A stretch of 64,000 nucleotides of DNA from Cellulomonas terrae. GTDB taxonomy: Bacteria > Actinomycetota > Actinomycetes > Actinomycetales > Cellulomonadaceae. This document shows, one piece after another, positions 19,855 to 41,068 of this stretch. A program made the translations under genes and the position numbers. The notes under the pieces were generated by a model. That model did not search any database. It saw nothing but the letters and a program-made list of their open reading frames with translations, and was not told the origin of the DNA. The number at the start of each line of letters is the position of its first letter. Position 1 is the first letter of the stretch. The stretch spans positions 62,001 through 126,000 of the forward strand of contig NZ_BJWH01000004.1 in the NCBI RefSeq assembly GCF_007990265.1, given 5' to 3'.

Positions 19855-20553
19855 ATGACCCAGGTGCTGCTGGCCGAGGACGATCCCGCGATTGCCGAGC
19901 CTTTGGCCCGCGCCCTCGGGCGTGAAGGTTACGACGTGCGCGTGCAAGGTACTGGTCAAGGTGCGATCGACGGCGCCGCGGCGGCTGACCTGGTCGTCCT
20001 CGACCTGGGCCTGCCCGACATGGACGGCCTCGACGTCGCGCGCGCGATCCGCAACCTCGGCCTGACCACCCCCCTGCTCGTGCTGACGGCCCGCGCCGAC
20101 GAGGTCGACCTCGTGGTCGGGCTCGACGCCGGTGCCGACGACTACGTGACCAAGCCGTTCCGGCTCGCCGAGCTGCTGGCGCGCGTCCGGGCGCTGCTGC
20201 GCCGCAGCGTCGGGGACCCGGGCGACGAGGACGAGCTGCACGCGCAGAACGTCCGCGTCGACGTCGCCGCGCACCGCGCGTTCCAGGGCGAGCGGGAGCT
20301 GCACCTGACCGCCAAGGAGTTCGACCTGCTGCGGGTGCTCGTCGGGGCGGCCGGCACCGTCGTCGCGCGCGAGACCCTCATGCGCGAGGTCTGGGGCTCG
20401 GACCCGACGGGCTCGACCAAGACGCTCGACATGCACGTCTCCTGGCTGCGCCGCAAGCTCGGCGACGACGCCAACGCCCCGCGCTACGTCACGACGGTGC
20501 GCGGCATGGGCTTCCGGTTCGAGACGGGCGGCGCGAGCGCCGAGCGGGGCTGA
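19855..20553 (+). CDS. OmpR/PhoB-type response regulator
   Basis: 232 aa. Receiver with Glu8-Asp9-Asp10, phosphoacceptor Asp50 and Lys101 (DDYVTKPF), then a winged-helix DNA-binding domain (LTAKEFDLLRVL, VSWLRRKLG). It is first in a two-gene operon with a sensor kinase and is transcribed from a leaderless promoter. Target genes are unknown; the next gene downstream is manA. Confidence 0.94.
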   Translation: MTQVLLAEDDPAIAEPLARALGREGYDVRVQGTGQGAIDGAAAADLVVLDLGLPDMDGLDVARAIRNLGLTTPLLVLTARADEVDLVVGLDAGADDYVTKPFRLAELLARVRALLRRSVGDPGDEDELHAQNVRVDVAAHRAFQGERELHLTAKEFDLLRVLVGAAGTVVARETLMREVWGSDPTGSTKTLDMHVSWLRRKLGDDANAPRYVTTVRGMGFRFETGGASAERG

Positions 20554-20556
20554 GCC

Positions 20557-21879
20557 TTGCGTCGTCGCGTCCTGCAGGCGACGATCGCCGCGGTCACCGT
20601 CGCGGTGGTCCTGCTCGGCTTCCCGCTCGCGTTCCTCGGCGCCCAGCTGGTCCGGGAGAACGAGATGCAGGCGCTGTCCGCGCGCGCCGAGTCGGCCGCT
20701 CGGGCCGTCGACTTCCGCGTCGAGCAGGACGTCGACCTCACGGACCGGATGCTCGAGAACTACACCGGCGACGTGGGGGAGATCCCGGCCTCCGTGATCG
20801 TCCGCACCCCCGACGGCGAGATCTACCAGGCGGGAGACCGGATCCAGGGCCGCTCGCTGTCGGTGGAGGAGGCGTCCGACACCGGCGCGACGGTCACGCT
20901 GTACGTGTCGTGGTGGGACGTCTTCTGGCTCAGCGCCCGCGTGATCGCGCTCGTGGTGGTCGCGGCCGTCGTCGCGTTCGCCGCCGGTATCGCGATGGCG
21001 ATCTGGCAGGCCAACCGCCTGACCGCGCCGCTCGTCTACCTGGCGGCGTCCGCGGAGCAGCTCGGCGCCGGCCAGGTGCGGCCACGCCTCGAGCCGTCCG
21101 GCGTCGAGGAGATCGACCTCGTCGCCGCCGAGCTCGCGCGCAGCGCGGACCGGATGGCCGCGCGGCTGGCGGCCGAGCGACAGTTCGCCTCCGACGCCTC
21201 CCACCAGCTGCGCACCCCGCTCACGGCGCTGTCCATGCGGCTCGAGGAGATCATGGTCGCCACGGACGACCCCGACGTGAGCGAGGAGGCCCGGATCTCG
21301 CTCGAGCAGGTCGAGCGGCTCGTGCGGGTCGTCGACGACCTGCTGGCCAGCTCCCGCAGGCTGCAGGGCGGCACGACCGAGGCCGTGCGCCTGCTGGAGG
21401 TCGTCCACCAGCAGGAGGAGGAGTGGCAGCCGACGTTCCTCGCGTCGGGACGGCGTCTGGTCGTCGACGTCGACCGCTCGACCCAGGTGCTCGCGACGCC
21501 GGGGGCGCTCGCCCAGGTGATCGCGACGCTCATCGAGAACTCCCTGCGGCACGGTGCCGGCACCACGACCGTGCGCTCCCGGCCGAGCGGGCCGTCGGGC
21601 GCGGTGGTCGTCGAGGTGGCCGACGAGGGTGCCGGCGTGCCGGACGACCTGGCCCCGCGGATCTTCGAGCGCGAGGTGACGTCCGGGAAGGGCACCGGCC
21701 TCGGCCTCGCGCTCGCCCGCGACCTGGCGTCCGCCGACGGGGGGCGGCTCGAGCTGGCCCAGCGTCGGCCGGCCGTGTTCGCGCTGTTCCTCTCGGGCGT
21801 GCCGGCCTCGATGCGGCCCGACGTCGTGCTCCCGCTGGGTGCGGTGGTCTCGGCGCGGATGGACCGGCGCCGACGATGA
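20557..21879 (+). CDS. Sensor histidine kinase with HAMP domain
   Basis: 440 aa with a TTG start 3 nt after the response-regulator stop. Two membrane helices (about 7-30 and 120-150) enclose an extracellular sensor of about 90 residues. HAMP, HisKA (FASDASHQLRTPL, His216) and HATPase (IENSLRHGAG, DEGAGVP, GTGLGLA) domains follow. The final part is short and somewhat divergent. It is the partner of the OmpR-type regulator. The signal is not known. Confidence 0.92.
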   Translation: MRRRVLQATIAAVTVAVVLLGFPLAFLGAQLVRENEMQALSARAESAARAVDFRVEQDVDLTDRMLENYTGDVGEIPASVIVRTPDGEIYQAGDRIQGRSLSVEEASDTGATVTLYVSWWDVFWLSARVIALVVVAAVVAFAAGIAMAIWQANRLTAPLVYLAASAEQLGAGQVRPRLEPSGVEEIDLVAAELARSADRMAARLAAERQFASDASHQLRTPLTALSMRLEEIMVATDDPDVSEEARISLEQVERLVRVVDDLLASSRRLQGGTTEAVRLLEVVHQQEEEWQPTFLASGRRLVVDVDRSTQVLATPGALAQVIATLIENSLRHGAGTTTVRSRPSGPSGAVVVEVADEGAGVPDDLAPRIFEREVTSGKGTGLGLALARDLASADGGRLELAQRRPAVFALFLSGVPASMRPDVVLPLGAVVSARMDRRRR

Positions 21880-21980: not shown

Positions 21981-23177
21981 GTGTACCGCATCACACCCGC
22001 GACGCAGGACTACGCGTGGGGCTCGACGACGGCCATCCCGGACGCGCTCGCGAGGATCCCGGACGGTCGCCCGGTGGCGGAGGCGTGGTTCGGCGCCCAC
22101 ACGCGCGCGCCCGCCGTCGCGGAGACGGCCGACGGCCCGGTGCCGCTCGACCAGCTCATCGCCGCGGACCCCGACCTCCACCTGGGCGCCGACGTCGCCT
22201 CCCGGTTCCGCTCGCAGCTGCCCTACCTGCTCAAGATCATCGCCGCGGACGCCCCGCTGTCGCTGCAGGTGCACCCCGCCATCGAGCGCGCCCGCGCCGG
22301 CTTCGCGCGCGAGGAGGCCGCGGGCGTCCCCGTCGACGCGCCCGAGCGCAGCTACCGCGACGCGAACCACAAGCCGGAGCTGGTGTACGCACTGACCCGG
22401 CTCGACGCGATGGTCGGCTTCCGGGCGCCTCGCCGGGCCGCCGAGCTCCTCGCCGAGCTGGACGCGCCCCTCGCGGCCGACCTGCACGCGCTGCTGGTGG
22501 ACGACCCGACGTCCACCGGCGTGCGCGGGGCGTTCGAGTGGCTCCTGCTCCCCGACACGCGCCCGTCGGCGGCCGACGTCGCCAAGTTCGCCGACGCCTG
22601 CGCCCGGCGGCTCGCGGAGGGGTCGCCGTCGCCGCGCACCGACCGCACGGTCATCCGCCTCGCGGCCGCCTACCCGGGCGACCCCGGCGCGGTCACGTCC
22701 GTGCTCCTCAACCCGGTGACGCTCCGCCCCGGGGAGGCGCTGTTCATCCCGGCCGGCGCGGTGCACGCCTACCTGCGCGGCGTCGGGGTCGAGATCATGG
22801 CCAACTCGGACAACGTGCTCCGCGCGGGCCTGACCACGAAGCACGTCGACGTCGCCGAGCTGCTGAGCAACGTGGACTGCGTCGCCGCACCGCCGATCCG
22901 GATCGCCCCCGAGCGCGTCTTCACGTCGACCCGCATCTACTACGCGCCGGTCGACGACTTCGAGCTGTCCGTGACGCGTCTGACCGACGAGGGGCCCATC
23001 CGCATCCCCGGCCGCGGACCCCGGATCATGCTCTGCCTCGAGGGCGAGGCCGAGCTCTCGACCGGGTCCGGCCAGTCGTTCTCGCTCACCCGGGGGCAGT
23101 CGGCGTTCGTGCTGGCGACGGACGGGCACGTGACCGCCGCGGGCGACGCCCTGGTCGTGCAGGCCGACGTCCCCTGA
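21981..23177 (+). CDS. manA: Mannose-6-phosphate isomerase, class I
   Basis: 398 aa, GTG start with an AGGAGA ribosome site. The zinc-binding residues of the cupin fold are visible in LQVHP, DANHKPE and GAVHAYLRG. The enzyme interconverts fructose-6-phosphate and mannose-6-phosphate in the cytoplasm and so feeds GDP-mannose. The next operon begins with gmd, which uses GDP-mannose, so a supply role is plausible. Genes for phosphomannomutase and GDP-mannose pyrophosphorylase are not in the window. Confidence 0.94.
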   Translation: MYRITPATQDYAWGSTTAIPDALARIPDGRPVAEAWFGAHTRAPAVAETADGPVPLDQLIAADPDLHLGADVASRFRSQLPYLLKIIAADAPLSLQVHPAIERARAGFAREEAAGVPVDAPERSYRDANHKPELVYALTRLDAMVGFRAPRRAAELLAELDAPLAADLHALLVDDPTSTGVRGAFEWLLLPDTRPSAADVAKFADACARRLAEGSPSPRTDRTVIRLAAAYPGDPGAVTSVLLNPVTLRPGEALFIPAGAVHAYLRGVGVEIMANSDNVLRAGLTTKHVDVAELLSNVDCVAAPPIRIAPERVFTSTRIYYAPVDDFELSVTRLTDEGPIRIPGRGPRIMLCLEGEAELSTGSGQSFSLTRGQSAFVLATDGHVTAAGDALVVQADVP

Positions 23178-23447: not shown

Positions 23448-24494
23448 ATGAAGAAGGCACTCGTCACCGGTATCACCGGGCAGGACGGTTCGTACCTGGC
23501 CGAGCTCCTGCTTCAGAAGGGCTACGAGGTGCACGGGATCGTGCGCCGGTCGAGCACGTTCGGCACGGACCGCATCGAGCACCTGTACAAGGACCCGCAC
23601 GACCCCGAGGCGCGGCTGTTCATCCACTACGGCGACCTCGCCGACGGCACCGGTCTGCGCCAGATCGTCGAGAAGGTGCAGCCCGTCGAGGTGTACAACC
23701 TCGGGGCCCAGTCGCACGTCGGGGTGTCCTTCTTCCAGTCCGAGTACACGGCCGACGTGGACGGGCTCGGCACGCTGCGGCTGCTCGAGGCGATCCGGGA
23801 CTACTCGCAGCGCACCGACCGCCAGGTCCGGTACTACCAGGCGGGCACCTCGGAGCAGTTCGGGGCCACGCCGCCGCCGCAGTCCGAGACCTCGGTGATG
23901 CACCCCCGCAGCCCGTACGCGGTGGCCAAGCTGTACGCCTACTGGCAGACCATCAACTACCGCGAGTCCTACGGGCTCTTCGCCTCGAACGGCATCCTGT
24001 TCAACCACGAGTCGGAGCGCCGCGGCGAGACCTTCGTCACGCGCAAGATCACGCGTGCGGCCACGCGCATCTCCCTCGGTCTGCAGGAGAAGCTCTATCT
24101 CGGCAACCTCGACGCCAAGCGCGACTGGGGCCACGCCCGGGACTACGTCGAGGCGATGTGGCTGATCCTCCAGCACGACACTCCGGACGACTTCGTGATC
24201 GCGACGGGCCAGATGTACTCCGTCCGGGAGTTCGTCGAGAAGGTCTTCGGACGCCTCGGCCTCGACTGGGAGCAGTACGTCGAGGTCGACCCCCGCTACT
24301 TCCGGCCCGCCGAGGTCGAGGCGCTGCAGGGCGACGCGACGAAGGCGCGGACGGTGCTCGGCTGGCAGCCGAAGGTCGGCATCGACGAGCTCGTGCAGCT
24401 CATGGTGGACAACGACCTGGAGCTCGCCCGCCAGGAGCGCACGCTGCGCGACGCCGGACACGTCGTCGCGGCGCGGTCCGGGGCCAACGATTGA
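23448..24494 (+). CDS. gmd: GDP-mannose 4,6-dehydratase
   Basis: 348 aa from the ATG, preferred over an upstream in-frame TTG that overlaps the -10 box. It is an extended short-chain dehydrogenase with NADP-binding [12 protein letters not shown] and catalytic TSEQFG and [12 protein letters not shown] (Tyr-x3-Lys). It turns GDP-mannose into GDP-4-keto-6-deoxymannose in the cytoplasm. It is first in an operon with a reductase, a ColD-like dehydratase, a glycosyltransferase and a flippase, all joined by 4-nt overlaps. Confidence 0.95.
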
Positions 24495-25435
24495 CGCGCC
24501 GGATCTACGTCGCGGGCCACACGGGGCTCGTCGGGTCGGCCCTGGGTCGGGCCGTGCGCTCCCGTGGGGACGTCTGTGCCCAGGGCGAGGAGCGGGTCGA
24601 CTTCCGGGACCGTGAGGCGACGTTCGCCGCCATCGCGGCCGGCCGGCCGGACGTGGTCGTCCTCGGGGCCGGGCGGGTGGGCGGTCTCGGTGCCAACCTG
24701 GCGCGCCCGGTCGAGTTCCTCGACGAGAACCTGCGCATCCAGGGCAACGTGCTCGCGGCGAGCCTCGCGGCAGGCGTCGAGCGGCTCCTGTTCGTCGGCA
24801 GCGCCAACGCGTACCCGGCGGCCGCGCCGCAGCCGATCTCGGAGGACGCCCTCGAGACCGCGGAGCTGGACCCGTCGACCCGGCCGTACGGCCTGGCCAA
24901 GCTGGTGGGGGCGCGGCTGTGCGAGGCGTACAGCGCCCAGCACGGCGTCACGTACCACTCCGTGATGCCGTGCAACCTGTACGGCCCGGGCGACCGGTTC
25001 GACCTCGCGACGGCCCACGTCGTGGCCGCGACGCTGCGCCGGTTCGGGGATGCGGTCGCCGACGGCCGCGAGCAGGTCGTCGTGTGGGGCTCGGGCAGTC
25101 AGCGGCGGCAGCTGATGCACGCGGACGACCTCGCGGCGGCGTGCCTGGTGCTCCTGGACCAGGAGCACCCCCCGTCGGTCGTGAACGCGGGACCGCGGGG
25201 CGACACGTCCGTCCGCGAGATCGCCGAGCTCGCAGCGGGCATCGTCGGATTCGACGGTGAGATAGCCTTCGATGCCACCAAGCCCGAGGGTGTCCTGCGG
25301 CGCGAGCTCGACACGAGCCGGATCCATGACCTCGGCTGGACTCCTCAGCACTCGCTCGAGGACGGCATGCGCTCGACGTGGCAGTGGTACGTGGAGCAGG
25401 AACGACGAGCCCCGATGACGGAGACCTTTGCATGA
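24491..25435 (+). CDS. GDP-fucose synthase / ColC-like GDP-4-keto-deoxyhexose reductase
   Basis: 314 aa with a TTG start overlapping the gmd stop (TTGA). Rossmann motif GHTGLVGS and family signatures GGLGAN and [11 protein letters not shown] are present. Against E. coli GDP-fucose synthase numbering (offset 3), Ser104, Tyr133, Lys137 and His176 match the catalytic Ser107, Tyr136, Lys140 and His179. The cysteine expected at 109 is Asn106 (GSANAYP). In GDP-fucose synthase that Cys takes part in epimerisation, while Ser-Tyr-Lys reduce the 4-keto group. Beside a ColD-like enzyme the likely substrate is GDP-4-keto-3,6-dideoxymannose. The product is colitose if epimerisation remains; otherwise it may be a non-epimerised 3,6-dideoxyhexose. 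Confidence 0.82.
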
Positions 25436-26628
25436 CGGCGTCACCCCGAGACATCCGCTATTCCCTGTCGCAGTCGTCCTGGGACGACGCCGAGTACGCC
25501 GCTCTGCAGCGCGTCATCGCCAGCGGCCAGTTCACGATGGCGAACGAGACCCTCGAGTACGAGCGGGTGTTCGCCGAGTACCTGGGCACGCCCTACTGCG
25601 TGGCCGTGAACTCCGGCAGCACCGCGAACCTCCTCATGGCCGCCGCCCTGCGCTACCGCAAGGTGAACCCCCTCCAGCCGGGCGACGAGGTGATCGTCCC
25701 CGCGGTGTCGTGGCCGACCACCTACTACCCGCTGAGCCAGTACGGGCTGCACCTGAAGTTCGTGGACATCGACGCCGAGACGCTGAACTACGACCTGGAC
25801 GCGCTCGAGGCCGCCATCAGCGACCGCACGCGGCTGGTCATGGTGGTGAACCTCCTCGGCAACGCGAACGACTTCGACCGCATCCGCGCCATCTGCGAGC
25901 CGCGCGGCATCGAGTTCATCGAGGACAACTGCGAGTCGCTCGGTGCGACCTTCGGTGACCGCCAGTGCGGGACCCACGGTGTGATGGGCAGCTTCAGCGG
26001 CTTCTTCTCGCACCACATCTCCACCATGGAGGGCGGCGTCATCTGCACCGCCGACGAGGAGCTGTACCACATCCTCCTCACGCTGCGGGCGCACGGCTGG
26101 ACGCGCAACCTGCCCAAGTTCAACCACGTGACGGGCGAGAAGAGCGACGACCCCTTCGAGGAGTCGTTCAAGTTCGTGCTGCCCGGGTACAGCGTCCGGC
26201 CGCTCGAGATGAGCGCCGCCGTCGGGATCGAGCAGATCGCCAAGCTGCCCGGGTTCGTGGCGGACCGCCGGCGCAACGCCACCCAGTACCTCGAGCTCAT
26301 GTCCCGCTACCCGCAGTTCATCGTGCAGCGGGAGATCGGCGAGTCGAGCTGGTTCGGCTTCAGCATGGTGGTGCGTCCCGACGCGCCGTTCGGCCGAGCC
26401 GACGTGGTCCGGGCGCTGCAGGCCGCCGGCGTGGAGTGCCGTCCGATCGTCGCCGGCAACTTCGCGAAGAACCCGGTCATGCGGTGGCTCGACCACTCGG
26501 TGCACGGCGAGCTCAGCAACGCGGACCTCATCGACACGAACGGCCTGTTCGTCGGCAACCGGGAGGGCGAGCTCGGCGCCGAGCTGTCCCTGCTGGCGAC
26601 GGTGCTGGACGAGCTGGTCGGGGCGTGA
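25432..26628 (+). CDS. colD: ColD-like GDP-4-keto-6-deoxy-D-mannose 3-dehydratase
   Basis: 398 aa, ATG in an ATGA overlap with the reductase gene. It has the fold of DegT/DnrJ/EryC1 aminotransferases, with GSTANLL (61-67) and the PLP-pairing Asp165 in EDNCES. The lysine that normally binds PLP is replaced: the motif reads FFSHHISTMEGG with His194-His195. This is the hallmark of ColD, where His188 takes the Lys position and the enzyme removes the C3 hydroxyl using PLP and glutamate. Stretches such as PAVSWPTTYYPLSQYG and RAHGWTRNLPKFN also match ColD as I know it. No iron-sulfur Cys pattern like that of the CDP-sugar enzyme RfbH/E1 is evident. Confidence 0.88.
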   Translation: MTASPRDIRYSLSQSSWDDAEYAALQRVIASGQFTMANETLEYERVFAEYLGTPYCVAVNSGSTANLLMAAALRYRKVNPLQPGDEVIVPAVSWPTTYYPLSQYGLHLKFVDIDAETLNYDLDALEAAISDRTRLVMVVNLLGNANDFDRIRAICEPRGIEFIEDNCESLGATFGDRQCGTHGVMGSFSGFFSHHISTMEGGVICTADEELYHILLTLRAHGWTRNLPKFNHVTGEKSDDPFEESFKFVLPGYSVRPLEMSAAVGIEQIAKLPGFVADRRRNATQYLELMSRYPQFIVQREIGESSWFGFSMVVRPDAPFGRADVVRALQAAGVECRPIVAGNFAKNPVMRWLDHSVHGELSNADLIDTNGLFVGNREGELGAELSLLATVLDELVGA

Positions 26629-27749
26629 CCGCCACGGCGCGCCCGAACGTCCTGGTCGACATGCTGTTCTGGACCGGGACGAAGGGCGGGATCGAGACCT
26701 ACGCGCGCGAGCTCTACTCCGCGCTGCGGGACACCGACCGGTACACGTTCACGGCCCTCGGCAGCACCGAGTTCGTCGCGTCGGACCCGGACTGGTTCCC
26801 GGGCCGCGTGGTCGACTCGGGCATCAGCGGCAACATCCTCGGCCTCAACCGCTTCCGGTGGTCCTGGGCCGAGCTCCAGGGCGTGTCGCGCTGGGCCGAC
26901 CGGCTGGGTGCGGACCTGATCCACTGCCCGTCGCTGCTGGGCCCCCGCCGCTCGTCGGTCCCGACGGTGGTGTCGATGCACGACCTGCTCTACTGGACGA
27001 ACCCGGAGCACATGCCGTCGCAGCTCTTCGTGAAGCCTGCGCAGTGGATGGAGTCCATGGTCGCGAAGAACGCGACCCGGATGATCACGATCAGCGAGTC
27101 CTCGGCCCGCGACATCGACAAGCACCTGCACTACCCCCGGGAGCGGCTCGACGTGATCCCGCTCGCGGGATCCGTCCGCGAGGCCGCCGCACGGCTGCGG
27201 ACCAGCACGCCGGAGAACGTCATCCTGGCGACCGGGAACCGGCTGGGGCACAAGAACTGGGGCTCGCTCATCCGGGCGCTGCCCCTGGTGCCCGAGGACG
27301 TCCGGCCGCGCCTCGTGATCACCGGCAGCAAGGGCGACGACCCGCTCATCCCGATCGTCGACGAGGTGGGGATGCAGGACTGGGTGGACCTGCGCGGCTG
27401 GGTCACGACCGAGGAGATGGACCACCTGCTCGCCAGCGCGGCGGCGCTCGCGATCCCCTCGTTCCACGACGGCTTCTGCCTCCCGGCGCTCGACGCGATG
27501 CTCATCGGGCTGCCGGTCCTGCTCAGCGACATCCCGGTGTACCGCGAGGTCGGGGGCGACGCCGCGATCTACGTCGACCCGCACTCGCTGCAGTCCATCG
27601 CGGACGGCATGACGATCGTCGCCACCGACCCGGACCGCATGCGCCGGGCGGCGGAGCTCGGGCGGGACCAGGCGGCACGGTTCTCGTGGGAGTCCACGGC
27701 GGCCCGCACGCTCGACGTCTTCGACAAGGCCCTGGCTCCGACCGCATGA
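26625..27749 (+). CDS. Glycosyltransferase, GT4 family
   Basis: 374 aa with a GTG start overlapping the colD stop. It has a GT-B fold: N-terminal acceptor loop GTKGGIETYARE, and a C-terminal donor site with the HDGFCLPALDAM variant of the EX7E motif. It probably transfers the deoxysugar made by the preceding genes, or a mannose, to a lipid-linked precursor at the inner membrane face. The substrate is inferred from context only. Confidence 0.85.
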   Translation: MTATARPNVLVDMLFWTGTKGGIETYARELYSALRDTDRYTFTALGSTEFVASDPDWFPGRVVDSGISGNILGLNRFRWSWAELQGVSRWADRLGADLIHCPSLLGPRRSSVPTVVSMHDLLYWTNPEHMPSQLFVKPAQWMESMVAKNATRMITISESSARDIDKHLHYPRERLDVIPLAGSVREAAARLRTSTPENVILATGNRLGHKNWGSLIRALPLVPEDVRPRLVITGSKGDDPLIPIVDEVGMQDWVDLRGWVTTEEMDHLLASAAALAIPSFHDGFCLPALDAMLIGLPVLLSDIPVYREVGGDAAIYVDPHSLQSIADGMTIVATDPDRMRRAAELGRDQAARFSWESTAARTLDVFDKALAPTA

Positions 27750-28987
27750 GCGAGGTCGTGCAGTCGGCGCCGCTCCGCCGGCTGTCCGTGCTGTCCCTGC
27801 TCGGGGGTGCTGCCTCCGGCGCCGGGATGTTCGCGCTCACGATCGTCGTCGCCCGGTCGCTGAGCCCGAGCGGGTTCGCGGACTTCGGGTTCTTCCTGGC
27901 GCTGTCCCAGGTGTGGTTCATCCTTGCCGTCGCGGGCCTGGAGCTCGCGGCGCCCCGGCTCCTCGCGCGGCAGCCCGCGGACCAGCGCGGGGTCGTCGTC
28001 GGCAGCGTCCTGACCGTGGCGTCGGTCCTGGCGGTCGTCGGGCTCGTCGTCGCCGTGGTCGCCTCGGAGCCGATCGCGCAGCTGACCCGGTCCACGCAGC
28101 TGCTCGTGCTGCTGGCCGCCGCGTTCGGGATGGCCACCGGGTGGCGGGCGGTGGTGGAGCGGCTGACGGCCGCCCTCGGCAGGGTCGGCGCCGTCGCGGT
28201 GGTCAAGGTCGTCGAGGCTGGCCTCATCGTCGTCGGCGCCCTCGTGGCCGTGCTGGTCCTGGGCACGCCGGCCTGGAGCACGTTCTCGATCCTCGTCGTC
28301 GTCGCGGCACTGCTCGCGGTCGGTGCGTACGTCGCGCTCGTCCGCCACCAGACCGCTCCGTGGCACACGACCTCGCAGACCCGCCGGCAGCTGATCTCGT
28401 TCGCCCGGTACGCCGCGCCGACCACCGTCTTCGCGGTCGCGATCATGTACATCGACAAGTTCACCCTGCGGATCGGCGGGACCGACCTGGAGTACGCGCA
28501 GTACTCGGCGTACTTCTCGGGCACGGTCCTCATCGCGGTGCAGGCGGTGTTCGTGCTGCAGAGCATCGTGCTGCCGGCCACCGTGCGGGCCGCGTCCGGA
28601 GTGACGGTCCGCCGGCAGATCATGCGGCTCCTGCCGGCGCTCGTCCTCGGGCTCCCGGTCCTCTACCTGTGCTCGGGCTGGGTCGTGCTCCAGGTCCTGG
28701 GCCCCAACTACGACTACGTGCTCGCCCAGGGCGCCCTCTTCGCCGGGTGGGCGACGCTCTACACGATCAACATCCTGTGCATGACCGCGTGCGTCGGCCG
28801 GGCGTCCCGTGCGATGCGCCGCGAGTCGATGGTGCTGGTGGCCCGGGTGGTCCTCGCCGTCCTGGCGCTGGGCGGCCTGGTCCTCACCGACCAGATCAGC
28901 ATCACGACGGTCGTGACCGTGATGGTGCTGCTCGAGCTGCTCGAGACCGTCAACGTCATGACGATGATGCGGCGCTACCTCGTCTGA
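27746..28987 (+). CDS. Polysaccharide flippase, Wzx/MATE-like
   Basis: 413 aa, ATG overlapping the glycosyltransferase stop. About 12 hydrophobic segments span the protein, and the N-terminal helix pair with RSLSPSGFADFGFF is typical of oligosaccharide flippases (MVF superfamily). It ends the gmd operon, so this module encodes sugar synthesis, transfer and translocation. The next gene lies on the other strand, 21 nt away. Confidence 0.88.
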   Translation: MSEVVQSAPLRRLSVLSLLGGAASGAGMFALTIVVARSLSPSGFADFGFFLALSQVWFILAVAGLELAAPRLLARQPADQRGVVVGSVLTVASVLAVVGLVVAVVASEPIAQLTRSTQLLVLLAAAFGMATGWRAVVERLTAALGRVGAVAVVKVVEAGLIVVGALVAVLVLGTPAWSTFSILVVVAALLAVGAYVALVRHQTAPWHTTSQTRRQLISFARYAAPTTVFAVAIMYIDKFTLRIGGTDLEYAQYSAYFSGTVLIAVQAVFVLQSIVLPATVRAASGVTVRRQIMRLLPALVLGLPVLYLCSGWVVLQVLGPNYDYVLAQGALFAGWATLYTINILCMTACVGRASRAMRRESMVLVARVVLAVLALGGLVLTDQISITTVVTVMVLLELLETVNVMTMMRRYLV

Positions 28988-29008: not shown

Positions 29009-29527
29009 CTAGCGGTCGGGATGTCCGGCGGCGCCCGTGAACACCCAGCGCTTGTACCCCGCGTACCGCAGCACGGTGCCGATGCCGATCCCGATCACCG
29101 TCGCGACGTTGTCCGCGAGCGGGGTGGTCAGCGTCAGCACGTAGTGCGAGAACGCGAGCGTGAGGACGGGGATCGCCGCGCAGCCGATGTTGATCGCTGC
29201 GAACACGAGGAGCTCGCGGGTCCGGCGGTCCGTGCGGTGCCGGGAGAACGTCCAGTGCCGGTTGCCCAGCCAGGACACCAGGGTGGCGGCGACGAGCGAG
29301 ATGATCTTGGCCGTGAGCGGCTTGTGCTCGAGCACCTGGCCCGGTCCGAACCGCAGCAGGTTGAACAGGCCGAGGTCGACGACGAACGCGACCCCGCCGA
29401 CCGACAGGAACCGCGCGAGCTCGTACGCGCGTGCCCGGAGCGCGGCGGCGCGCAGGGCGGGTGCGACAGGGACCAGCGGGCTCGCCGAGACCGGCGGGCT
29501 GTCGGTCAGCTCGTCGCTCGAGCTCAT
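29009..29527 (-). CDS. GtrA family membrane protein
   Basis: 172 aa, ATG with a GGAGG ribosome site. Four membrane helices and the family motifs FLSVGGVAFVVDLGLF and WLGNRHWTFSR identify GtrA/DPMS3-like proteins. They act with polyprenyl-phosphate sugars, either flipping them or helping a GtrB-type transferase. It is single-gene here; a GtrB-like GT2 lies at 51.6-52.4 kb. Confidence 0.9.
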   Translation of the reverse strand: MSSSDELTDSPPVSASPLVPVAPALRAAALRARAYELARFLSVGGVAFVVDLGLFNLLRFGPGQVLEHKPLTAKIISLVAATLVSWLGNRHWTFSRHRTDRRTRELLVFAAINIGCAAIPVLTLAFSHYVLTLTTPLADNVATVIGIGIGTVLRYAGYKRWVFTGAAGHPDR

Positions 29528-29637
29528 GGAAACGCCTCCGGTGCTGTCGTTCGGTCACGAGAGGATAGCCCGCGAGCCTGGGACCACCGCGACCGGGGTC
29601 CGGGGCGAAGCGTTTCGGCGCGCTGGCGTGGCTCGGC

Positions 29638-29643
29638 TAGTGT
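29638..29643 (+). promoter_or_regulatory. -10 box of leaderless purK promoter
   Basis: TAGTGT ends 8 nt before the GTG at 29652. CGTTTCGGCG at 29611-29620 lies at about the -35 distance. Confidence 0.5.
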
Positions 29644-29651
29644 CGTCGCCC

Positions 29652-30818
29652 GTGACAGCACCCGTGGTGGCCGTGGTCGGTGGTGGGCAGCTCGCCCGCA
29701 TGATGGCGTCGCCGGCAGCGGCGCTCGGCGTGCACCTGCGGGTCCTCGTCGAGAGCCCGACGTCGTCCGCGGCGCAGGTGGTCGTCGACGCCCCCGTCGG
29801 CGCAGCGTCCGACGAGGCGGCGATCGCTCGCCTGGTGGAGGGTGCCGACGCGCTGACCTTCGAGCACGAGCACGTCCCGAACGCGCTGCTCGACCGGCTC
29901 GAGGGTGCCGGGGTCGCGGTGCGGCCCGACGCCGCGGCGCTCGTGCACGCCCAGGACAAGATCGTCATGCGGTCGCGGCTGGCCGCGCTCGGCCTGCCGG
30001 TCCCGCGCTGGACCGCCCTGGGCTCGGCCTCCGACCTCGCCGACTTCCTCGGGACGGTCGGCGGTGTCGCGGTGGTCAAGACCGCGCGCGGCGGGTACGA
30101 CGGCAAGGGCGTGCGCGTCGTCCGCAGCCCCGACGAGGTCGCCGACTGGCTGGCGGCCGCGGCGGACGGGTCGGGAGCGCCCCTGCTCGCCGAGGAGAAG
30201 GTCCCGTTCACGCGCGAGCTCGCGGTGCTCGTGGCGCGTCGACCCTCCGGTGAGGCGCGCGCATGGCCCGTCGTCGAGTCGGTGCAGCGCGACGGTGTCT
30301 GCGCCGAGGTCGTGGCTCCCGCGCCCGGTCTGCACGCGGCGACCGAGGCCGAGGCGATCGACGTCGCCACCCGGATCGCCACCGGCCTCGGCGTCACCGG
30401 GGTGCTGGCCGTGGAGCTCTTCGAGGTCGAGGGCGCGGACGGCGGCCCGCCCCGGGTGCTGGTGAACGAGCTGGCGATGCGACCGCACAACTCCGGGCAC
30501 TGGACCATCGACGGGTCCGTGACGAGCCAGTTCGAGCAGCACCTGCGGGCCGTGCTCGACCTCCCGCTCGGCGACACGTCGGCACGCTCCGCGTGGACGG
30601 TCATGGCGAACGTGCTGGGCAGCGCCCTGCCGGACCCGACCGCGGCGCTCGGGGACGTCGCCGTCCTGGACGCGGGCGCCAAGGTGCACCTGTACGGCAA
30701 GGAGGTGCGCGCGGGACGCAAGCTCGGGCACGTGAACGTGAGCGGCGAGGATCTTGCCGACGTGCGCCGTCGTGCGGTCGCCGCGGCGGCGCTGCTGCGG
30801 GGCGAGTCGTCCGCCTGA
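29652..30818 (+). CDS. purK: 5-(carboxyamino)imidazole ribonucleotide synthase
   Basis: 388 aa from a GTG at leaderless spacing. It is an ATP-grasp enzyme: N-terminal [11 protein letters not shown], central [12 protein letters not shown] glycine loop and C-terminal [14 protein letters not shown]. It makes N5-CAIR from AIR, ATP and bicarbonate in purine synthesis. The purE gene follows, as is usual. These housekeeping genes sit within the glycan region, and LCP genes follow. Confidence 0.95.
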
Positions 30819-30912
30819 CGCGAACAGGGCTCCCGGGGGCGGCACGGTCCGCTGCGCCTGGGACATGATGGGCGCGCGGCGTCACCGGGACGGCGTCAGG
30901 ACGGAGACGGTG

Positions 30913-31452
30913 ATGGCAGCGCAGGCCCAGGTGGGGATCGTCATGGGCTCGGACTCGGACTGGCCGGTCATGAAGGCAGCCGCCGAGGTGCTCGCCGAGT
31001 TCGACGTCCCCGTCGAGATCGACGTGGTCTCCGCGCACCGCCAGCCCGAGAAGATGATCGCGTACGGCCGCAGCGCCGCGGCTCGGGGCCTGCGGGTGGT
31101 GATCGCCGGCGCCGGCGGTGCCGCGCACCTGCCGGGCATGCTCGCCGCGGTCACGACGCTGCCCGTGGTCGGCGTCCCCGTGCCGCTCGCCTACCTGGAC
31201 GGCATGGACTCCTTGCTCTCGATCGTGCAGATGCCGGCCGGGGTCCCCGTGGCGACCGTCTCGATCGGGGGAGCGCGCAACGCGGGCCTGCTCGCGGTGC
31301 GCATCCTCGCCTCGGGCGACGGCGAGCAGGCGGTGCGGCTGCGTGCGGCCATGGAGGCCTTCCAGCAGGACCTGCAGGGTCAGGCCGACGGCAAGGGCGA
31401 GCGTCTCCGCGCCCAGACGTCGGCACGGCCGAGCGTGGGGTTCAGCGTCTGA
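30913..31452 (+). CDS. purE: 5-(carboxyamino)imidazole ribonucleotide mutase, class I
   Basis: 179 aa, ATG with GGAG upstream. The family core [21 protein letters not shown] and [11 protein letters not shown] is intact. It converts N5-CAIR to CAIR. It lies about 95 nt after purK. The stop codon sits in a 20-bp tandem duplication. Confidence 0.95.
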
Positions 31453-31482
31453 GCGAGCGGCTCAGCGTCTGAGCGAGCGGCT
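31443..31482. repeat. 20-bp perfect tandem duplication at the purE stop
   Basis: The unit CAGCGTCTGAGCGAGCGGCT occurs twice without a gap (31443-31462 and 31463-31482). The first copy covers the last purE codons and the TGA, the second is non-coding. It appears to be a recent slippage duplication. Confidence 0.85.
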
Positions 31483-31500
31483 CGGCGTCGGCGACGCCGA
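31482..31500. terminator. Short hairpin between convergent purE and LCP genes
   Basis: A perfect 8-bp stem (31482-31489 with 31493-31500) with a 3-nt loop lies between the two convergent stops. Confidence 0.45.
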
Positions 31501-31515
31501 CTCGCCCACGGACGG

Positions 31516-32928
31516 TCAGCCGACCGGCATGCCCCCGACGGGGCCGGGCGGGAGGGATCCGTCGCGGATCGCCGCGAAGAAGCCCGGGGTCGCGTCCGGG
31601 TCGAGCAGCACTGTCGACCCCGCGCCGTTGCCGGGACGGTAGTCGATGCTCACGATCGGGGGCGTCCCCGTGATGCCGCCCTCGCCGTTCGCGGCCTTGA
31701 ACGCGAGCGCGAGCTTCGCCAGGTCGACGATCCCCGCGTCGTCGTCGACGGTGAGCGCCCCGGTGCCCGCGTCGATGAGCGCCACCTGCTTCCCGGGGTT
31801 GAGCACCAGCGACGCCGGCTCGACCTTGCCCATCACGGCGCCGATCAGCTGACGCTGGCGCTCCGCCCGACCGACGTCGCCGGTGAGGTCCGCCTTGCGC
31901 ATCCGGGCGAACGCCAGTGCCTGGGTGCCGTCGACGTCGTGGCAGCCCGCCACCCAGACCATGCCGGAGTCGGCGTCGTTCACGTCGGCGTCGTGGCACA
32001 GGTTCACGCCGCCCACCGCGTCGACGATCTGCTCGACCCCCGCCATCCCGATCTCGGCGTAGTGGTCGACGGTGAGTCCGGTGAGACCTTCCACCGTCTG
32101 GACGAGCAGAGGCGCCTGTCCCCAGGAGAACGCCGCGTTGAGCTTCGCCGCGCCGTTCCCGGGGATCTCCACGTAGGTGTCCCGGGGCAGCGAGATCAGG
32201 GCCGTCGGGCCGCTGTCCGGCACGTGCAGCAGCAGGATGGTGTCGGTGCGGGAACCTTCGGTCCCGTCCTGCGCGATGCCACCGTCGGCGCGCGAGTCCG
32301 AGCCGGTGAGCAGGTACGTGGTGCCCGGGGTGTTCGCGGCCCCGCTGAGCGCCGGAGTGTGCTGGACCTTGCCGTTGGCCCACACCGCGAGACCGATCGG
32401 CCAGGCGAGCAGGGCGACCACGACCAGGGCCGCGACACCGCCGACGAGAGCCTTCCGGCTGCGCCGCGACCCGGGTTGCGCGGTCGGTGCCGGTGGCCGG
32501 GGGCCGGTCGGCCCGGCGGGCGGACGCCCACCGGCGGGCCGGACCGGCTGCGCCGGGCGACTCGTCGCCGGCCGTGACGACATGGACCGGGGCGCGGTGG
32601 CCGGCGCGGCAGCGGGGGTCGCCTGCTGACCGGAGCGTCCCGGGACCGGGACGCGCTCGGAGGCTCGAGCCGGCCGTGCGCCCTGCCCCGCGGGGGCGAT
32701 GGTCGGCGGGCGGCCCGCCGATGGCCGGGCGTCGGTGGAGCCGGCTGAAGGTCGGGGCGTCCGCCCCTCACCTGCGGCCGGAGCGCGGGTTGCCCGGTGC
32801 GGCGTCGCCGGACGAGACGGCCGGCCGACCACGATCGGCTCGGCGTCGGCCGGACGTGCCGGACGGGCCGAGGCACCGGGCGCGAAGCTCGGCGGGGGTG
32901 TGCGCGAGGTCCGCTCGTCGGAAGCCAT
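31516..32928 (-). CDS. LytR-CpsA-Psr (LCP) family glycopolymer ligase
   Basis: 470 aa. A Pro/Arg/Ala-rich cytoplasmic tail of ~150 residues is followed by one membrane helix (KALVGGVAALVVVALLAW) and an extracellular LCP domain: TGSDSRAD, the Arg-Asp pair in RTDTILLLHV, and SLPRDTYVEI. LCP proteins move polyprenyl-linked glycans onto peptidoglycan MurNAc. It starts 3 nt after the stop of another LCP gene, so they form an operon with rmlB upstream. The long disordered tail is unusual in length. Confidence 0.92.
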   Translation of the reverse strand: MASDERTSRTPPPSFAPGASARPARPADAEPIVVGRPSRPATPHRATRAPAAGEGRTPRPSAGSTDARPSAGRPPTIAPAGQGARPARASERVPVPGRSGQQATPAAAPATAPRSMSSRPATSRPAQPVRPAGGRPPAGPTGPRPPAPTAQPGSRRSRKALVGGVAALVVVALLAWPIGLAVWANGKVQHTPALSGAANTPGTTYLLTGSDSRADGGIAQDGTEGSRTDTILLLHVPDSGPTALISLPRDTYVEIPGNGAAKLNAAFSWGQAPLLVQTVEGLTGLTVDHYAEIGMAGVEQIVDAVGGVNLCHDADVNDADSGMVWVAGCHDVDGTQALAFARMRKADLTGDVGRAERQRQLIGAVMGKVEPASLVLNPGKQVALIDAGTGALTVDDDAGIVDLAKLALAFKAANGEGGITGTPPIVSIDYRPGNGAGSTVLLDPDATPGFFAAIRDGSLPPGPVGGMPVG

Positions 32929-32931
32929 GCG

Positions 32932-34176
32932 TCAGCAGACGTCCGTCGTGTCGTCGACGCTGAACGCCTCGTGCCCGGCCTTCTTCGTCTCCACCGGGGT
33001 CGGCTGCACCGGCGTCGCCGGGACCTCCGGGGCGGCGGTGGCGTCCGGGGCCGCGGGAGGGGCCGTCGTGGCAGGTGCCGTCGGGGCCTCGCCGAGAGCC
33101 GGCACGTCGTTGGCCATGTTCGCCCACACGGCGTCGGCCGCGGACGTCCACTCGACCCGGTTGGGGTCCGACTTCGCGGGGGCGAACGGGATCGTCATGA
33201 AGGTGATGTTGCCACTGCTGATGTTGCGAAGGTTGTAGGCGAGGCCGGTCATGTTGCCGATCGACATCCCGTTGTCCGTCGTCAGCGAGCCCGTCGCAGC
33301 GCTCAGGAACGAGATCAGCTTCTGCGGGTTGGTCAGGACGTCCCGGGAGAGGACCTCGCGGACCATCGCGGCGATGAGCTTCTGCTGGTTCCCGATGCGG
33401 TTCGTGTCCGAGCCGTCGCCCACCCCGGGACCCTTGCGCGCCCGGGCGTAGGCGAGGGCCGTCGGGCCGTCGAGCGTCTGGAAGCCAGGCTGGAGCGACA
33501 GCCCCGCCAGCTGGGACTCCATCTTCGTCGGGATGCACATGGGCACCCCGCCGATGGACGTGACCATCTGCTGGAAGCCGGCGAAGTCGACGACGACGAA
33601 GTGGTCGATGGTGAGGCCGGTGTTGAGCTGCACCGTGTTGATCGTGCAGGCGGCGGCCGACGTCATGTCGCCGCCGTTGTCCCAGCCCGTCGCGAAGGCC
33701 GAGTTGAACATGCCGTGGGTCGCGCGGGTGGTCTTCCCGTTCGTCATCGTGCACGACGGGATGTCCACCAGGGAGTCGCGCGGGATGGACACGAGCTCGA
33801 CCCGCGACCGGTCGGCGGAGATGTGCAGGACCATCGTCGTGTCGGAGCGCATGCCCGCGGCCTCGCCACCGATCTCGGCGTTCACACCGTCGCGCTGGTC
33901 GGAGCCGAGGATCAGGATGTTCACGGCCTGGCCGGCGTTCGGGTCGTCGGGGTCGGGCTCCGTGGTCGCCGAGGGCATCGGGTTCACGAGCGCCGAGACG
34001 TCGACCTTCTCCATGTTGCCGTTCAGCTTGGCTGCGACCGCGGCCACCCCGCTCGCGCCGAAGACGACGACGGCGACGACGCCGAGCGCGATCCCACGGA
34101 CGACGCCGTGGGTGCGCACACGACGGGAGTGCCGGGCGGCACGAGGGCGCTGAACAGCAGCGTGGCGGGAGGTCAC
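32932..34176 (-). CDS. LytR-CpsA-Psr (LCP) family glycopolymer ligase
   Basis: 414 aa from the GTG at 34176, selected for the TACGAT box 6 nt upstream; an in-frame start 16 codons earlier is possible. It has a short basic tail, one membrane helix, and an LCP domain with LGSDQRDG, RSDTTMVLHI and SIPRDSLVDI. The C-terminus is a Pro/Ala-rich tail ending in Cys. It may be partly redundant with the following LCP protein or act on another polymer. Confidence 0.92.
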   Translation of the reverse strand: MTSRHAAVQRPRAARHSRRVRTHGVVRGIALGVVAVVVFGASGVAAVAAKLNGNMEKVDVSALVNPMPSATTEPDPDDPNAGQAVNILILGSDQRDGVNAEIGGEAAGMRSDTTMVLHISADRSRVELVSIPRDSLVDIPSCTMTNGKTTRATHGMFNSAFATGWDNGGDMTSAAACTINTVQLNTGLTIDHFVVVDFAGFQQMVTSIGGVPMCIPTKMESQLAGLSLQPGFQTLDGPTALAYARARKGPGVGDGSDTNRIGNQQKLIAAMVREVLSRDVLTNPQKLISFLSAATGSLTTDNGMSIGNMTGLAYNLRNISSGNITFMTIPFAPAKSDPNRVEWTSAADAVWANMANDVPALGEAPTAPATTAPPAAPDATAAPEVPATPVQPTPVETKKAGHEAFSVDDTTDVC

Positions 34177-34182
34177 CGGACG

Positions 34183-34188
34183 ATCGTA
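34183..34188 (-). promoter_or_regulatory. -10 box of leaderless LCP promoter
   Basis: TACGAT on the minus strand ends 6 nt before the GTG at 34176. Confidence 0.5.
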
Positions 34189-34249
34189 GGAGCGCCACCC
34201 GTCTCTCCGGGGGAGCGCACGCACGGGCGTCGTGGAGGATCTGTGCAGA

Positions 34250-38084
<3,835 letters not shown>

Positions 38085-38135
38085 ACGGGGGATCACTGGA
38101 ACGTTTCGGCGTTGCGCGCTTGACCTCCTCACCTC

Positions 38136-38157
38136 CCCCTGCTTCCCTCGGCAGGGG
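38136..38157 (+). terminator. Small hairpin between wzt-type and amidase genes
   Basis: A 7-bp stem (38136-38142 with 38151-38157), loop of 8 nt, followed by TT. It lies 50 nt after the ATPase stop and just before the amidase ribosome site. Confidence 0.35.
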
Positions 38158-38176
38158 TTCTTCGGAGGGGGCAAGG

Positions 38177-40957
38177 ATGCGCGCACGGTCCAGGACGACC
38201 AGGGGGATGGCGATGCTCGCCGTCGGTGCGTCCGCGATGCTGGCCGTGCCGGTGACGGGCGTCGCTGCCGCGCAGGCCGGCCCGACTGCGTCGGCGTCGA
38301 CGCGGACAGCGCCCGCTGCTCCTCCGATCACACCCCCGGCCGACACGTCCGAGCTCGTCGTGGACCAGGTCCCGGTCGACATCGCGGCGCAGGTGCCCGC
38401 GAGCCCCACGGACGACACGGTGGCGACCAGGAGCGAGTCGGGCGGTGACCGGATCGTGAGCGAGACCGTGGCCGCCGACGGCTACAAGAGCGTCGGGGTC
38501 ACGTGGGAGGCCGAGCCGTCCGACCCCGGGGTCGAGGTCTCCGTGCGGACCCTGACGGACGGCACGTGGTCGGAGTGGATGGAGTTCGAGGGCGACTCGT
38601 CGGCGCCCGACACCGGGACGCTCGAGGCGTCCCGGGACATCCGGGCGGGCACGGGTTCGCTCTGGATCGACGGCGCGAGCCACCTGCAGCTGTCGTTCGA
38701 CGGCGCGGCCCGCAGCGTGGACGACGTCCGCGTCGCGCTGGTGGGCGACGCGACGACGGACGACGCGACGACGGACGACGCGACGACGGACGACGCGGAC
38801 GACGCGACGACGAGCGACGCGACGACGGACGACGCGACGACGGACGTGGTCCGGCGGTCGGAGGCCGGCGGCTCCGCCTCACGGTCGACGCTCGGTCGTG
38901 TCGAGTCCGTCGCCGTGTCCGCCGCCGCTCCGGCACCGGCGATCATCACCCGCGCCGGGTGGGGTGCGGCTCCGCAACGCTGCGCGTTCGACGTCGCGTC
39001 GACGCTCCTCGCGTCGGCGGTGCACCACACCGCGGGTCCCAACACGTACAGCACGGTCGCGCAGGCCATGGAGCAGCTGCGTGCCGACCAGCGGTACCAC
39101 CAGGACGCCCGGGGATGGTGCGACCTCGGCTACAACTACGTCGTCGACAAGTGGGGCAACGTCTACGAAGGCCGCGCGGGATCGGGCGAGCAGCCCGTCA
39201 TCGGCGTGCACGCGGGGGGCTTCAACACCGCGACCGTCGGCATCTCCATGCTCGGCGACTACAGCGCGACGGCCCCGTCGGCCGCGCAGCGGGAGAGCGT
39301 CGCGCGGCTCATCGCGTGGCGGATGGCCTCGTACCACCGTGACCCGGGCAGCACCGTCGGCTACACGACCCTGGGCGGGGACAACTCCCGCTACGCGGCG
39401 GGGACGTCGCTCGCGCTGCCGGTCGTCTTCGGGCACCGGGACGTGGCGTTCACGGCGTGCCCGGGCGAGGCGGGGTACGCGGTCCTGGGCGCGATCAAGC
39501 AGCGTGCCCGCGAGCTCGTCGGCGCCGCCTTCGTGAACCCGTCGCTGTCCACCTCCACCGTCCAGTACGGCGGTGGGCTCAGCGTGGTCGCGGGCGTCAA
39601 CTCCGCCATCAACTGGACGATGACCATCACCGACCAGCGCACGGGTGTCCAGCTCGTGAGCTCGACGGGGACCGCAGGCTCCAGCGGCGGGGGCACCGTC
39701 GTCGCCTGGGACGGCCGGTCGAACGCGGGCGTGCGGCTCGGTGCCGGCCCGTACCGCCTCGACCTCGTCGGGACGGAGGCGGGCACGGGCGCGAGCGTCA
39801 TCCCGTGGTCCCGGCCGTTCACGGTGCAGGGCAGCCAGAACCCGCCGACGGTGGCCGGCCGACCCCTCGGGACCGACCTCCACTTCGTGCCCATCTCTCC
39901 GACCCGCCTGGTGGACACCCGGCTCACGGGGGCCTCGCTCGGTCCGGCGTCACGCATGGACGTCACCGTCGCCGGCGTGGCAGGGGTCCCGGCCGACGCA
40001 GCCGCCGTGGCGCTGAACGTGACGTCCGTGGGGTCGTCGGGCGTGACGTTCCTGCGCACCTGGCCCGCCGGCGCCCCGATGCCCGACACGTCGAACCTGA
40101 ACACGGACGAGCGCTCGACCACGGCGTCGGGCGCCTTCGTGGGGGTGGGCGGCGAGGGAAAGGTCAGCATCTACAACAACGCCGGCTCGACCCACGCCAT
40201 CGTCGACGTCACGGGCTACTTCACGACCGACGCCAGCGCGCCGGCGTACCGACCTCTCGCCACGGGTGTCCGCGTCCTCGACTCCCGCTCCGACGGTGGC
40301 CAGCTGACGTCCACCGCGACCCGGCGCGTCCAGGTCGCCGGACGACAGGGCATCCCTGCCGACGCGCGAGCGGTCATGATGAACATCACGTCGGTCCTGC
40401 CGGGCGGGGTCGGCAACATCGTCGCCTATCCCAGCGGGGGCGCCCGGCCCGTCGTGTCGAGCGTCAACCACCTGCCGGGCAACAACGTCAGCAACCGCCA
40501 GGTCATCGTGCTCGGCTCCGACGGCGCCCTGGACCTCGCCCTGCAGGGTTCGTCGGCGCACGTCGTCCTCGACGTCGTCGGGTGGTTCGGCCCCGGGGGC
40601 ACCGACGGCTACAACCCGATGGTCCCGGTGCGGGCGGTGGACACGCGCGTGACGGGCGGGCCGCTGGGCCCGCAGGGGGTCCGGAGCGTCCCGCTGCGGC
40701 CGGCCGGTCTGCCGTCGAGCGCCACCGCCGGGATCGTCGTGGTCACCGCGACCCAGCAGTCCGCGGGGATGACCTTCCTCACGGCGTGGCGCTCGGGCGC
40801 CGCCCGTCCTCTGGCGTCCGACATGAACACCGGGTGGGGTCGGGACCAGGCGAACGTGGCGGTCGTCGGAACCGGTGCCGACGGTGTGATCCAGGTGTAC
40901 AACGACGCGGGGAGCGTGCAGGCGATCGTCGACCTGCAGGGGTGGTTCGGACCCTGA
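38177..40957 (+). CDS. Secreted N-acetylmuramoyl-L-alanine amidase with surface repeats
   Basis: 926 aa, ATG with GGAGG upstream. A signal peptide ends near AAAQA. A linker-like domain with a D-A-T-T-D repeat tract (residues ~191-223) precedes a PGRP/Amidase_2 domain of ~190 residues with zinc ligands in AVHHTAG, FGHRDV and TACPG. A FlgD-type Ig segment (TVVAWDGRSNAGVRL) and three copies of a ~110-residue repeat follow; each starts near RxxDTR or RVLDSR and ends near DVTGYF or DLQGWFGP. Such repeats are common on actinobacterial surface proteins. It would cut peptide stems from peptidoglycan. Its position between the exporter ATPase and permease genes suggests wall remodelling during polymer export. 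Confidence 0.88.
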   Translation: MRARSRTTRGMAMLAVGASAMLAVPVTGVAAAQAGPTASASTRTAPAAPPITPPADTSELVVDQVPVDIAAQVPASPTDDTVATRSESGGDRIVSETVAADGYKSVGVTWEAEPSDPGVEVSVRTLTDGTWSEWMEFEGDSSAPDTGTLEASRDIRAGTGSLWIDGASHLQLSFDGAARSVDDVRVALVGDATTDDATTDDATTDDADDATTSDATTDDATTDVVRRSEAGGSASRSTLGRVESVAVSAAAPAPAIITRAGWGAAPQRCAFDVASTLLASAVHHTAGPNTYSTVAQAMEQLRADQRYHQDARGWCDLGYNYVVDKWGNVYEGRAGSGEQPVIGVHAGGFNTATVGISMLGDYSATAPSAAQRESVARLIAWRMASYHRDPGSTVGYTTLGGDNSRYAAGTSLALPVVFGHRDVAFTACPGEAGYAVLGAIKQRARELVGAAFVNPSLSTSTVQYGGGLSVVAGVNSAINWTMTITDQRTGVQLVSSTGTAGSSGGGTVVAWDGRSNAGVRLGAGPYRLDLVGTEAGTGASVIPWSRPFTVQGSQNPPTVAGRPLGTDLHFVPISPTRLVDTRLTGASLGPASRMDVTVAGVAGVPADAAAVALNVTSVGSSGVTFLRTWPAGAPMPDTSNLNTDERSTTASGAFVGVGGEGKVSIYNNAGSTHAIVDVTGYFTTDASAPAYRPLATGVRVLDSRSDGGQLTSTATRRVQVAGRQGIPADARAVMMNITSVLPGGVGNIVAYPSGGARPVVSSVNHLPGNNVSNRQVIVLGSDGALDLALQGSSAHVVLDVVGWFGPGGTDGYNPMVPVRAVDTRVTGGPLGPQGVRSVPLRPAGLPSSATAGIVVVTATQQSAGMTFLTAWRSGAARPLASDMNTGWGRDQANVAVVGTGADGVIQVYNDAGSVQAIVDLQGWFGP
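38747..38845 (+). repeat. 15-bp coding tandem repeat (DATTD)n
   Basis: About six and a half imperfect copies of a 15-nt unit encode Asp-Ala-Thr-Thr-Asp inside the amidase gene. The acidic, Thr-rich stretch is probably a flexible and perhaps glycosylated linker. Nucleotide identity between copies suggests slippage and length variation. Confidence 0.9.
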
Positions 40958-41068
40958 CCGGTGAGGGTGCCGGTGGTCTGGGAGGTATCGTGTGCGGCTG
41001 TCGATGTATGACGTCCGGCCAGTCGAGATCACGCCCGCCGTCACCAATCCACCCTGCACGGAGGCGTT

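Follow-up and report, generated by a model that had tools for sequence, protein, structure and literature searches.

A ColD-type 3-dehydratase gene of Cellulomonas terrae lies next to a GFS-family SDR lacking the epimerase cysteine and may serve the synthesis of a GDP-3,6-dideoxy-D-hexose

Organization of the gmd-SDR-colD locus

The window analysed here, a stretch of 64,000 nucleotides from contig NZ_BJWH01000004.1 of Cellulomonas terrae, carries a group of sugar genes with the following features (window positions).

21981-23177, + strand: phosphomannose isomerase-like gene upstream of gmd, putative operon member (PF20511, 3.4e-25)
23448-24494, + strand: gmd, GDP-mannose 4,6-dehydratase (TIGR01472, 525 bits against a cut-off of 415, 8.2e-158)
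24491-25435, + strand: GFS-family SDR, predicted C4 reductase without epimerase activity (NF047922, 334 bits, cut-off 500; residues SANYKH)
24806-24808, + strand: codon of Asn106, at the place of GFS Cys109 in the motif GSANAYP (by alignment; ATG/TTG count from 24491)
25432-26628, + strand: colD, predicted GDP-4-keto-6-deoxymannose 3-dehydratase (2gms, E = 2.4e-149; ColD clade, 100/99)
26011-26013, + strand: codon of His194, at the place of the PLP lysine (by alignments)
26625-27749, + strand: GT4 glycosyltransferase (PF00534, 4.4e-20; PF13439, 2.8e-17)
27746-28987, + strand: Wzx-like flippase (PF01943, 9.1e-9)

The genes gmd, colD and that of the GFS-family SDR lie together in one operon, the ATG of colD overlapping the stop of the upstream SDR gene by 4 bases, and third-position GC is 0.96-1.0 in the colD blocks sampled downstream of the start. 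The colD product (398 amino acids) contains FFSHHISTMEGG, whose His pair lies at residues 194 and 195. An initial annotation had pointed to this His194-His195 motif and to gmd two genes upstream, and both are found, the motif in the translation of 25432-26628 and gmd at 23448-24494. Beyond wzx there are purK and purE on the + strand and, on the - strand, genes for two LCP glycopolymer ligases and a dTDP-glucose 4,6-dehydratase.

The order gmd-SDR-colD-GT4-Wzx is common to C. septica (L009) and genome G003 (L149), with 69-93% identity, gmd itself being 91-93% identical in both. The block from purK through purE and the two LCP genes to the dTDP-glucose dehydratase gene (29160-36871) is reversed relative to wzx in G003, and L009 matches the G003 orientation up to its contig end. 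An ABC transporter with a Wzt C-terminal domain, an ABC-2 permease and a glycosyltransferase, encoded at 36585-43254, apparently form a second surface-polysaccharide export system. A response regulator and a DraK-type histidine kinase are encoded at 19855-21879, ahead of the sugar genes; that this pair regulates the sugar genes is only a guess.

The DegT-family protein belongs to the ColD clade

In phmmer searches of the PDB the best solved relative of the window DegT-family protein was E. coli ColD (2gms, E = 2.4e-149 over residues 8-392), and because of this E value over that length the sequence similarity can be taken as not due to chance; E1/RfbH (1.4e-57) and perosamine synthetase (2.2e-32) matched more weakly. 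Identity to E. coli O55 ColD is 57.9%, and in a tree of 53 rows, built without PerA, the window protein falls inside a ColD clade of 38 rows (100/99) that includes E. coli O55 ColD, while RfbH (7 rows) and the Lys aminotransferases (5 rows) form clades separate from it. All 88 near-invariant ColD columns (at least 98% conserved in 97 other ColD rows) are kept, and Cys is found at only one of the six Cys columns that are invariant in the seven RfbH rows. The protein also stays below the cut-off of the RfbH equivalog NF011936 (259 bits against 423). Within its own genome colD is the sole strong PF01041 gene (3.7e-71), the five other matches ranging from 7.0e-6 to 5.5e-4.

His194 corresponds to His188 of E. 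coli O55 ColD in our own alignment, and in the phmmer alignments the first His of the motif pairs with N of 3b8x and K of 2r0t, which are E. coli ColD variants. The column holds His in 112 of 119 DegT-family rows and Lys in the other seven, which represent five distinct aminotransferases (two entered twice), including E. coli ArnB and WecE; His194 thus occupies the Lys position of sugar aminotransferases, as had been proposed from spacing. An aminotransferase was therefore rejected by the His in place of Lys and the separate clade, and RfbH/E1 by the sub-threshold NF011936 score, the separate clade and the single RfbH Cys column.

Judged by sequence, the product of 25432-26628 is a ColD-type 3-dehydratase ortholog, and the family assignment made initially held when the protein was aligned and placed in a tree with ColD, RfbH and other DegT proteins. 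It resembles ColD (WbdK) of E. coli O55:H7 over its full length, with His194 equivalent to His188 and without the RfbH cysteine set. RfbH/E1, the CDP-4-keto-6-deoxyglucose 3-dehydratase, shares the His-for-Lys replacement and C3 dehydration, as predicted for the window protein, but differs in clade and cysteines. Taken alone, the ColD call is fairly ordinary, that of a known-family member in an uncommon host. The system differs from that of E. coli O55:H7 in its actinobacterial host, in the LCP wall-ligase genes nearby and in a partner SDR that is not ColC.

Distribution of ColD and its operon

Although rare among actinobacteria, ColD is not confined to this genome: at E<=1e-90 the order yielded relatives in 8 of 396 genomes and the phylum in 3 of 396, own genome included in both counts. 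At E<=1e-70, nine of 81 genus genomes carried a relative, six at 56% identity or more and three in a sister clade at 41-44%. This second His-bearing DegT clade, present in three other Cellulomonas genomes (L155, 254-1276; L156, 8846-9904; L157, 8973-9998), is the sister of ColD (96/96) and has gmd and a GFS-family SDR nearby; two tabulated SDRs of this group, L008 and L098, still have Cys at the Cys109 position. Among GTDB contigs 111 ColD relatives were matched, and the best 80 of these, picked by likeness to the window ColD, come mainly from Rhodobacteraceae and beta/gammaproteobacteria (57-68% identical), with C. septica at 89%.

The initial annotation had considered such a sugar notable in an actinobacterium. 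ColD is indeed uncommon there, but the claim was overstated, given the eight genomes of the order and a genome survey of sugar pathways that already treated L-colitose across prokaryote phyla and gave it as absent from TACK archaea (PMC7725333). Our literature search, in which taxonomy journals were thinly covered, found no report of tyvelose or colitose in Cellulomonas, Agromyces or actinobacterial walls. A single clade of the window ColD with other actinobacterial ColDs was not rejected (p 0.145), and a separate transfer of colD into the lineage is only a possibility.

The gene order is widely kept: among the best 80 of the 111 GTDB relatives an SDR gene lies directly upstream of colD in all 80 loci, and the order gmd-SDR-colD is found in 73. 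In four of the seven loci with no gmd call the SDR lies within 270 bases of the locus end, and in L012, L071 and L086 gmd is absent there.

The middle SDR lacks the epimerase cysteine

At the positions of GFS Ser107, Ser108, Cys109, Tyr136, Lys140 and His179 the window SDR reads SANYKH, with Asn in the column of the epimerase base and with the Ser/Tyr/Lys reductase triad and His179 kept. Its best profile is that of GDP-L-fucose synthase (NF047922), at 334 bits below a cut-off of 500 that is a weak test, being passed in none of 81 genus genomes and in 16 of 198 phylum genomes. The SDR matches E. coli GFS at E = 2.2e-79; its identity is 41.4% with Fcl of E. coli K-12 and 31.9% with ColC of E. 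coli O55. It carries 16 changes at columns at least 90% conserved in 124 reference rows, several of them beside Tyr136 and His179; Cys109->Asn is one, and the 15 others are common to three Cellulomonas proteins.

The structural model (pLDDT 92.3; best PDB match E. coli GFS, 1gfs, TM 0.90) predicts an intact Rossmann fold. Estimates of dN/dS are 0.20-0.24 for the SDR gene, 0.12-0.16 for colD and 0.09-0.11 for gmd. By sequence the SDR gene is thus under purifying selection, although partial relaxation also fits, its value exceeding the colD value by a factor of about 1.5 and the gmd value by a factor of two. A decaying SDR was rejected on the open frame, the kept triad and this dN/dS. No other GFS-family gene of note was found in the genome, the remaining matches being 1.5e-6 or weaker.

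Among 93 colD-linked SDR rows, which include L008 and L098 with their 41-44% ColD relatives as partners, the residues are SSCYKH in 66, STCYKH in 20, SANYKH in 5 and TAAYKH in 2, that is, Cys in 86 and Asn or Ala in 7. The 37 unlinked rows have SSC (33), STC (3) or STA (1), so that Cys is present in 36. These alignments leave out L080, L096 and L116, which are short, L092 and L099, in which no SDR was found, and 12 loci whose genes were already represented. SAN is read in the window, L002, L009, L003 and Shewanella sp. AS1 (L068), TAA in Cellulomonas G018 and G833. Cys109 is absent from five of six Cellulomonas ColD operons, L002 and L009 being counted separately although probably one species, versus one of 78 rows of other GTDB loci (from the best 80 of 111). 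A distant GFS-family SDR of Cellulomonas G815 (L115), unlinked to colD and on a very long branch, has Ala at this position.

Repeated loss of the cysteine in colD-linked SDRs

A split setting the ColC rows apart from the trio to which the window SDR belongs has support of 97 in one tree (built without L002) and 100/100 in two others. These later SDR trees were built without the long-branch L115, L012, L049, L070 and L095 and part of the ColC/Fcl rows, one of them also without L068. In a tree of 71 rows the window trio adjoins the ColC stem at only 47/84, a tentative placement, as the trees are unrooted and the trio branch is long enough to draw a long-branch warning. The window SDR nevertheless is likely, from its sequence, to be an Fcl that replaced ColC, since identity is 41.4% to Fcl versus 31.9% to ColC. 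It shares with ColC, the GDP-L-colitose synthase of E. coli O55, the SDR family and the place before colD, but lies outside the ColC clade and has Asn for the epimerase Cys.

A mutated actinobacterial ColC, tested as a grouping of the trio with seven actinobacterial ColC rows, was rejected (AU p 0.00011), as was a Cys loss shared by the trio with G018/G833 (p 0.00011) or with Shewanella AS1 (p 0.0014). On these sequences, Cys was lost in three unrelated colD-linked SDR lineages, twice in Cellulomonas and once in Shewanella.

The window and Shewanella AS1 SDRs both depart at 9 of 69 conserved columns (at least 90% conserved in the 124 reference rows), versus 3.4 expected if changes were even, and four departures are identical (C109N, N133T, A137G, S178A). 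The hypergeometric value is 0.0004, or 0.0012 without C109, the residue used to pick the pair, and is a guide only, since change is not spread evenly over the columns. Among 3360 Fcl-by-ColC reference pairs none had nine shared or four identical departures; reference rows depart less by construction. Downstream of gmd, the SDR gene and colD in Shewanella sp. AS1 (L068, 5947-11698) lie a gene weakly matching GT4 and one for a Wzx flippase, an order similar to that of the window; this gmd was scored as adjacent in the survey of 80 loci.

Proposed pathway and alternatives

What the sequence shows is the ColD identity, the active-site His, the order of the genes, the absence of the Cys, an intact reductase triad and purifying selection, and with these we somewhat favour an operon that would make a GDP-3,6-dideoxy-D-hexose (tyvelose or its C4 epimer) rather than GDP-L-colitose, for a surface glycopolymer. 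Colitose and tyvelose are C5 epimers. Gmd would convert GDP-mannose to GDP-4-keto-6-deoxymannose, and ColD, forming PMP from PLP and glutamate and using His194 as acid/base, would remove the C3 hydroxyl to give GDP-4-keto-3,6-dideoxymannose. Since the SDR lacks the epimerase Cys and keeps the triad, it would reduce C4 with NADPH without C5 epimerisation, Asn replacing the base Cys109, and would yield a D sugar, either GDP-3,6-dideoxy-D-arabino-hexose (tyvelose) or the C4 epimer (lyxo), as the C4 configuration is not readable from sequence. The GT4 enzyme would then use the sugar, Wzx would flip it, and the LCP proteins encoded nearby might attach it. The substrates, the loss of epimerase activity, the C4 configuration and the fate of the sugar are what we infer here.

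Studied enzymes offer precedents for such a reductase. Epimerisation at C3 and C5 by GFS uses Cys109 as base and His179 as acid (PMC7949155, PMC12362431), a Cys/His dyad that in the window SDR is Asn/His. Campylobacter jejuni DdahC (Thr/His) and MlghC (Tyr/Arg) have the GFS fold with the dyad Cys likewise replaced, DdahC keeping His too, and are described as having no epimerase activity and as able to reduce the unepimerised mannose ketone (PMC7949155); they differ from the window SDR in their heptose substrates and separate cupin epimerases, and the window model is 30-31% identical to them in Foldseek (7anh, 7anc). According to the same source DdahC prefers the epimerised substrate and gained no epimerase activity from an added Cys (PMC7949155), therefore one residue does not decide. 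C4 reductases of C. jejuni are reported to turn unepimerised GDP-3,6-dideoxy-4-keto-heptose into D-arabino and D-lyxo products (PMC10440746, PMC10680097).

The strongest alternative is that the SDR still epimerises C5 through another base, such as a water, an Asn-positioned water or another side chain, and so gives GDP-L-colitose. The gene order is as in colitose-type loci and His179, the acid of the dyad, is retained, so that another base could serve; but the base Cys itself is missing and conserved columns are changed, several of them beside Tyr136 and His179, which makes this reading unlikely. The human GFS variants also speak against it: about 70% of the product of C116S was reduced ahead of C5 epimerisation, and C116A fell below detection (PMC12362431). 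The C116A result, however, counts against our favoured reading too, since loss of the Cys by itself may abolish all activity and need not yield a working reductase.

The SDR might instead act before or beside ColD, converting GDP-4-keto-6-deoxymannose to GDP-D-rhamnose or its C4 epimer and leaving the ColD product to an unseen enzyme. The C. jejuni reductases can act on the unepimerised mannose ketone (PMC7949155), but in each of the three Cellulomonas loci of the window type gmd and colD immediately flank the SDR gene, and the genome holds no further GFS-family reductase of note, in a search of that family, so that we consider this quite improbable.

A separate epimerase could also invert C5 ahead of reduction and give the L sugar, as with the separate cupin-type C5-epimerase of C. 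jejuni HS:5 and HS:11 (PMC10440746), and an RmlC-type epimerase, the only RmlC gene of the genome, is encoded at 48730-49263. This is nonetheless very improbable, given that the lone RmlC passes the cut-off of the dTDP-4-dehydrorhamnose epimerase family TIGR01221 and lies 20 kb away, and that tblastn with it (E<=1e-3, a search for near homologues) found no RmlC relative beside the Cys-less SDRs of L009, L149, L150, L151 and L068. Finally, a DegT protein acting on another nucleotide sugar, or with transaminase side activity, is hardly credible: the substrate is assigned from homology and gmd, but the 57.9% identity to E. coli O55 ColD, the 88 of 88 near-invariant columns and gmd in the operon all oppose it.

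Implications

A GDP-3,6-dideoxyhexose, as first suggested for this locus, is the natural reading of ColD with gmd; what the suggestion missed is the SDR without the epimerase Cys, which alters the likely product. On its sequence the altered partner sets the operon apart from known colitose loci, and the product is probably not colitose. More tentatively, Gmd, ColD and an epimerase-less GFS relative might convert GDP-mannose to tyvelose (3,6-dideoxy-D-mannose) or the C4 epimer of tyvelose by a GDP-linked route, independent of CDP-glucose and RfbH and arrived at convergently in Cellulomonas (twice) and Shewanella through loss of the epimerase Cys. Tyvelose is made by a CDP route with E1 (PMC8987622), and a literature search over limited spellings found no mention of GDP-tyvelose.

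If the D-hexose reading is true, colitose would be no default product for gmd-SDR-colD operons, and the middle gene would separate L-colitose from D-series 3,6-dideoxyhexoses. It would also mean a second biosynthetic origin of a tyvelose-type sugar and a repeated natural conversion of a bifunctional epimerase/reductase into a reductase only, and some Gram-positive bacteria would display 3,6-dideoxyhexoses at their surface.
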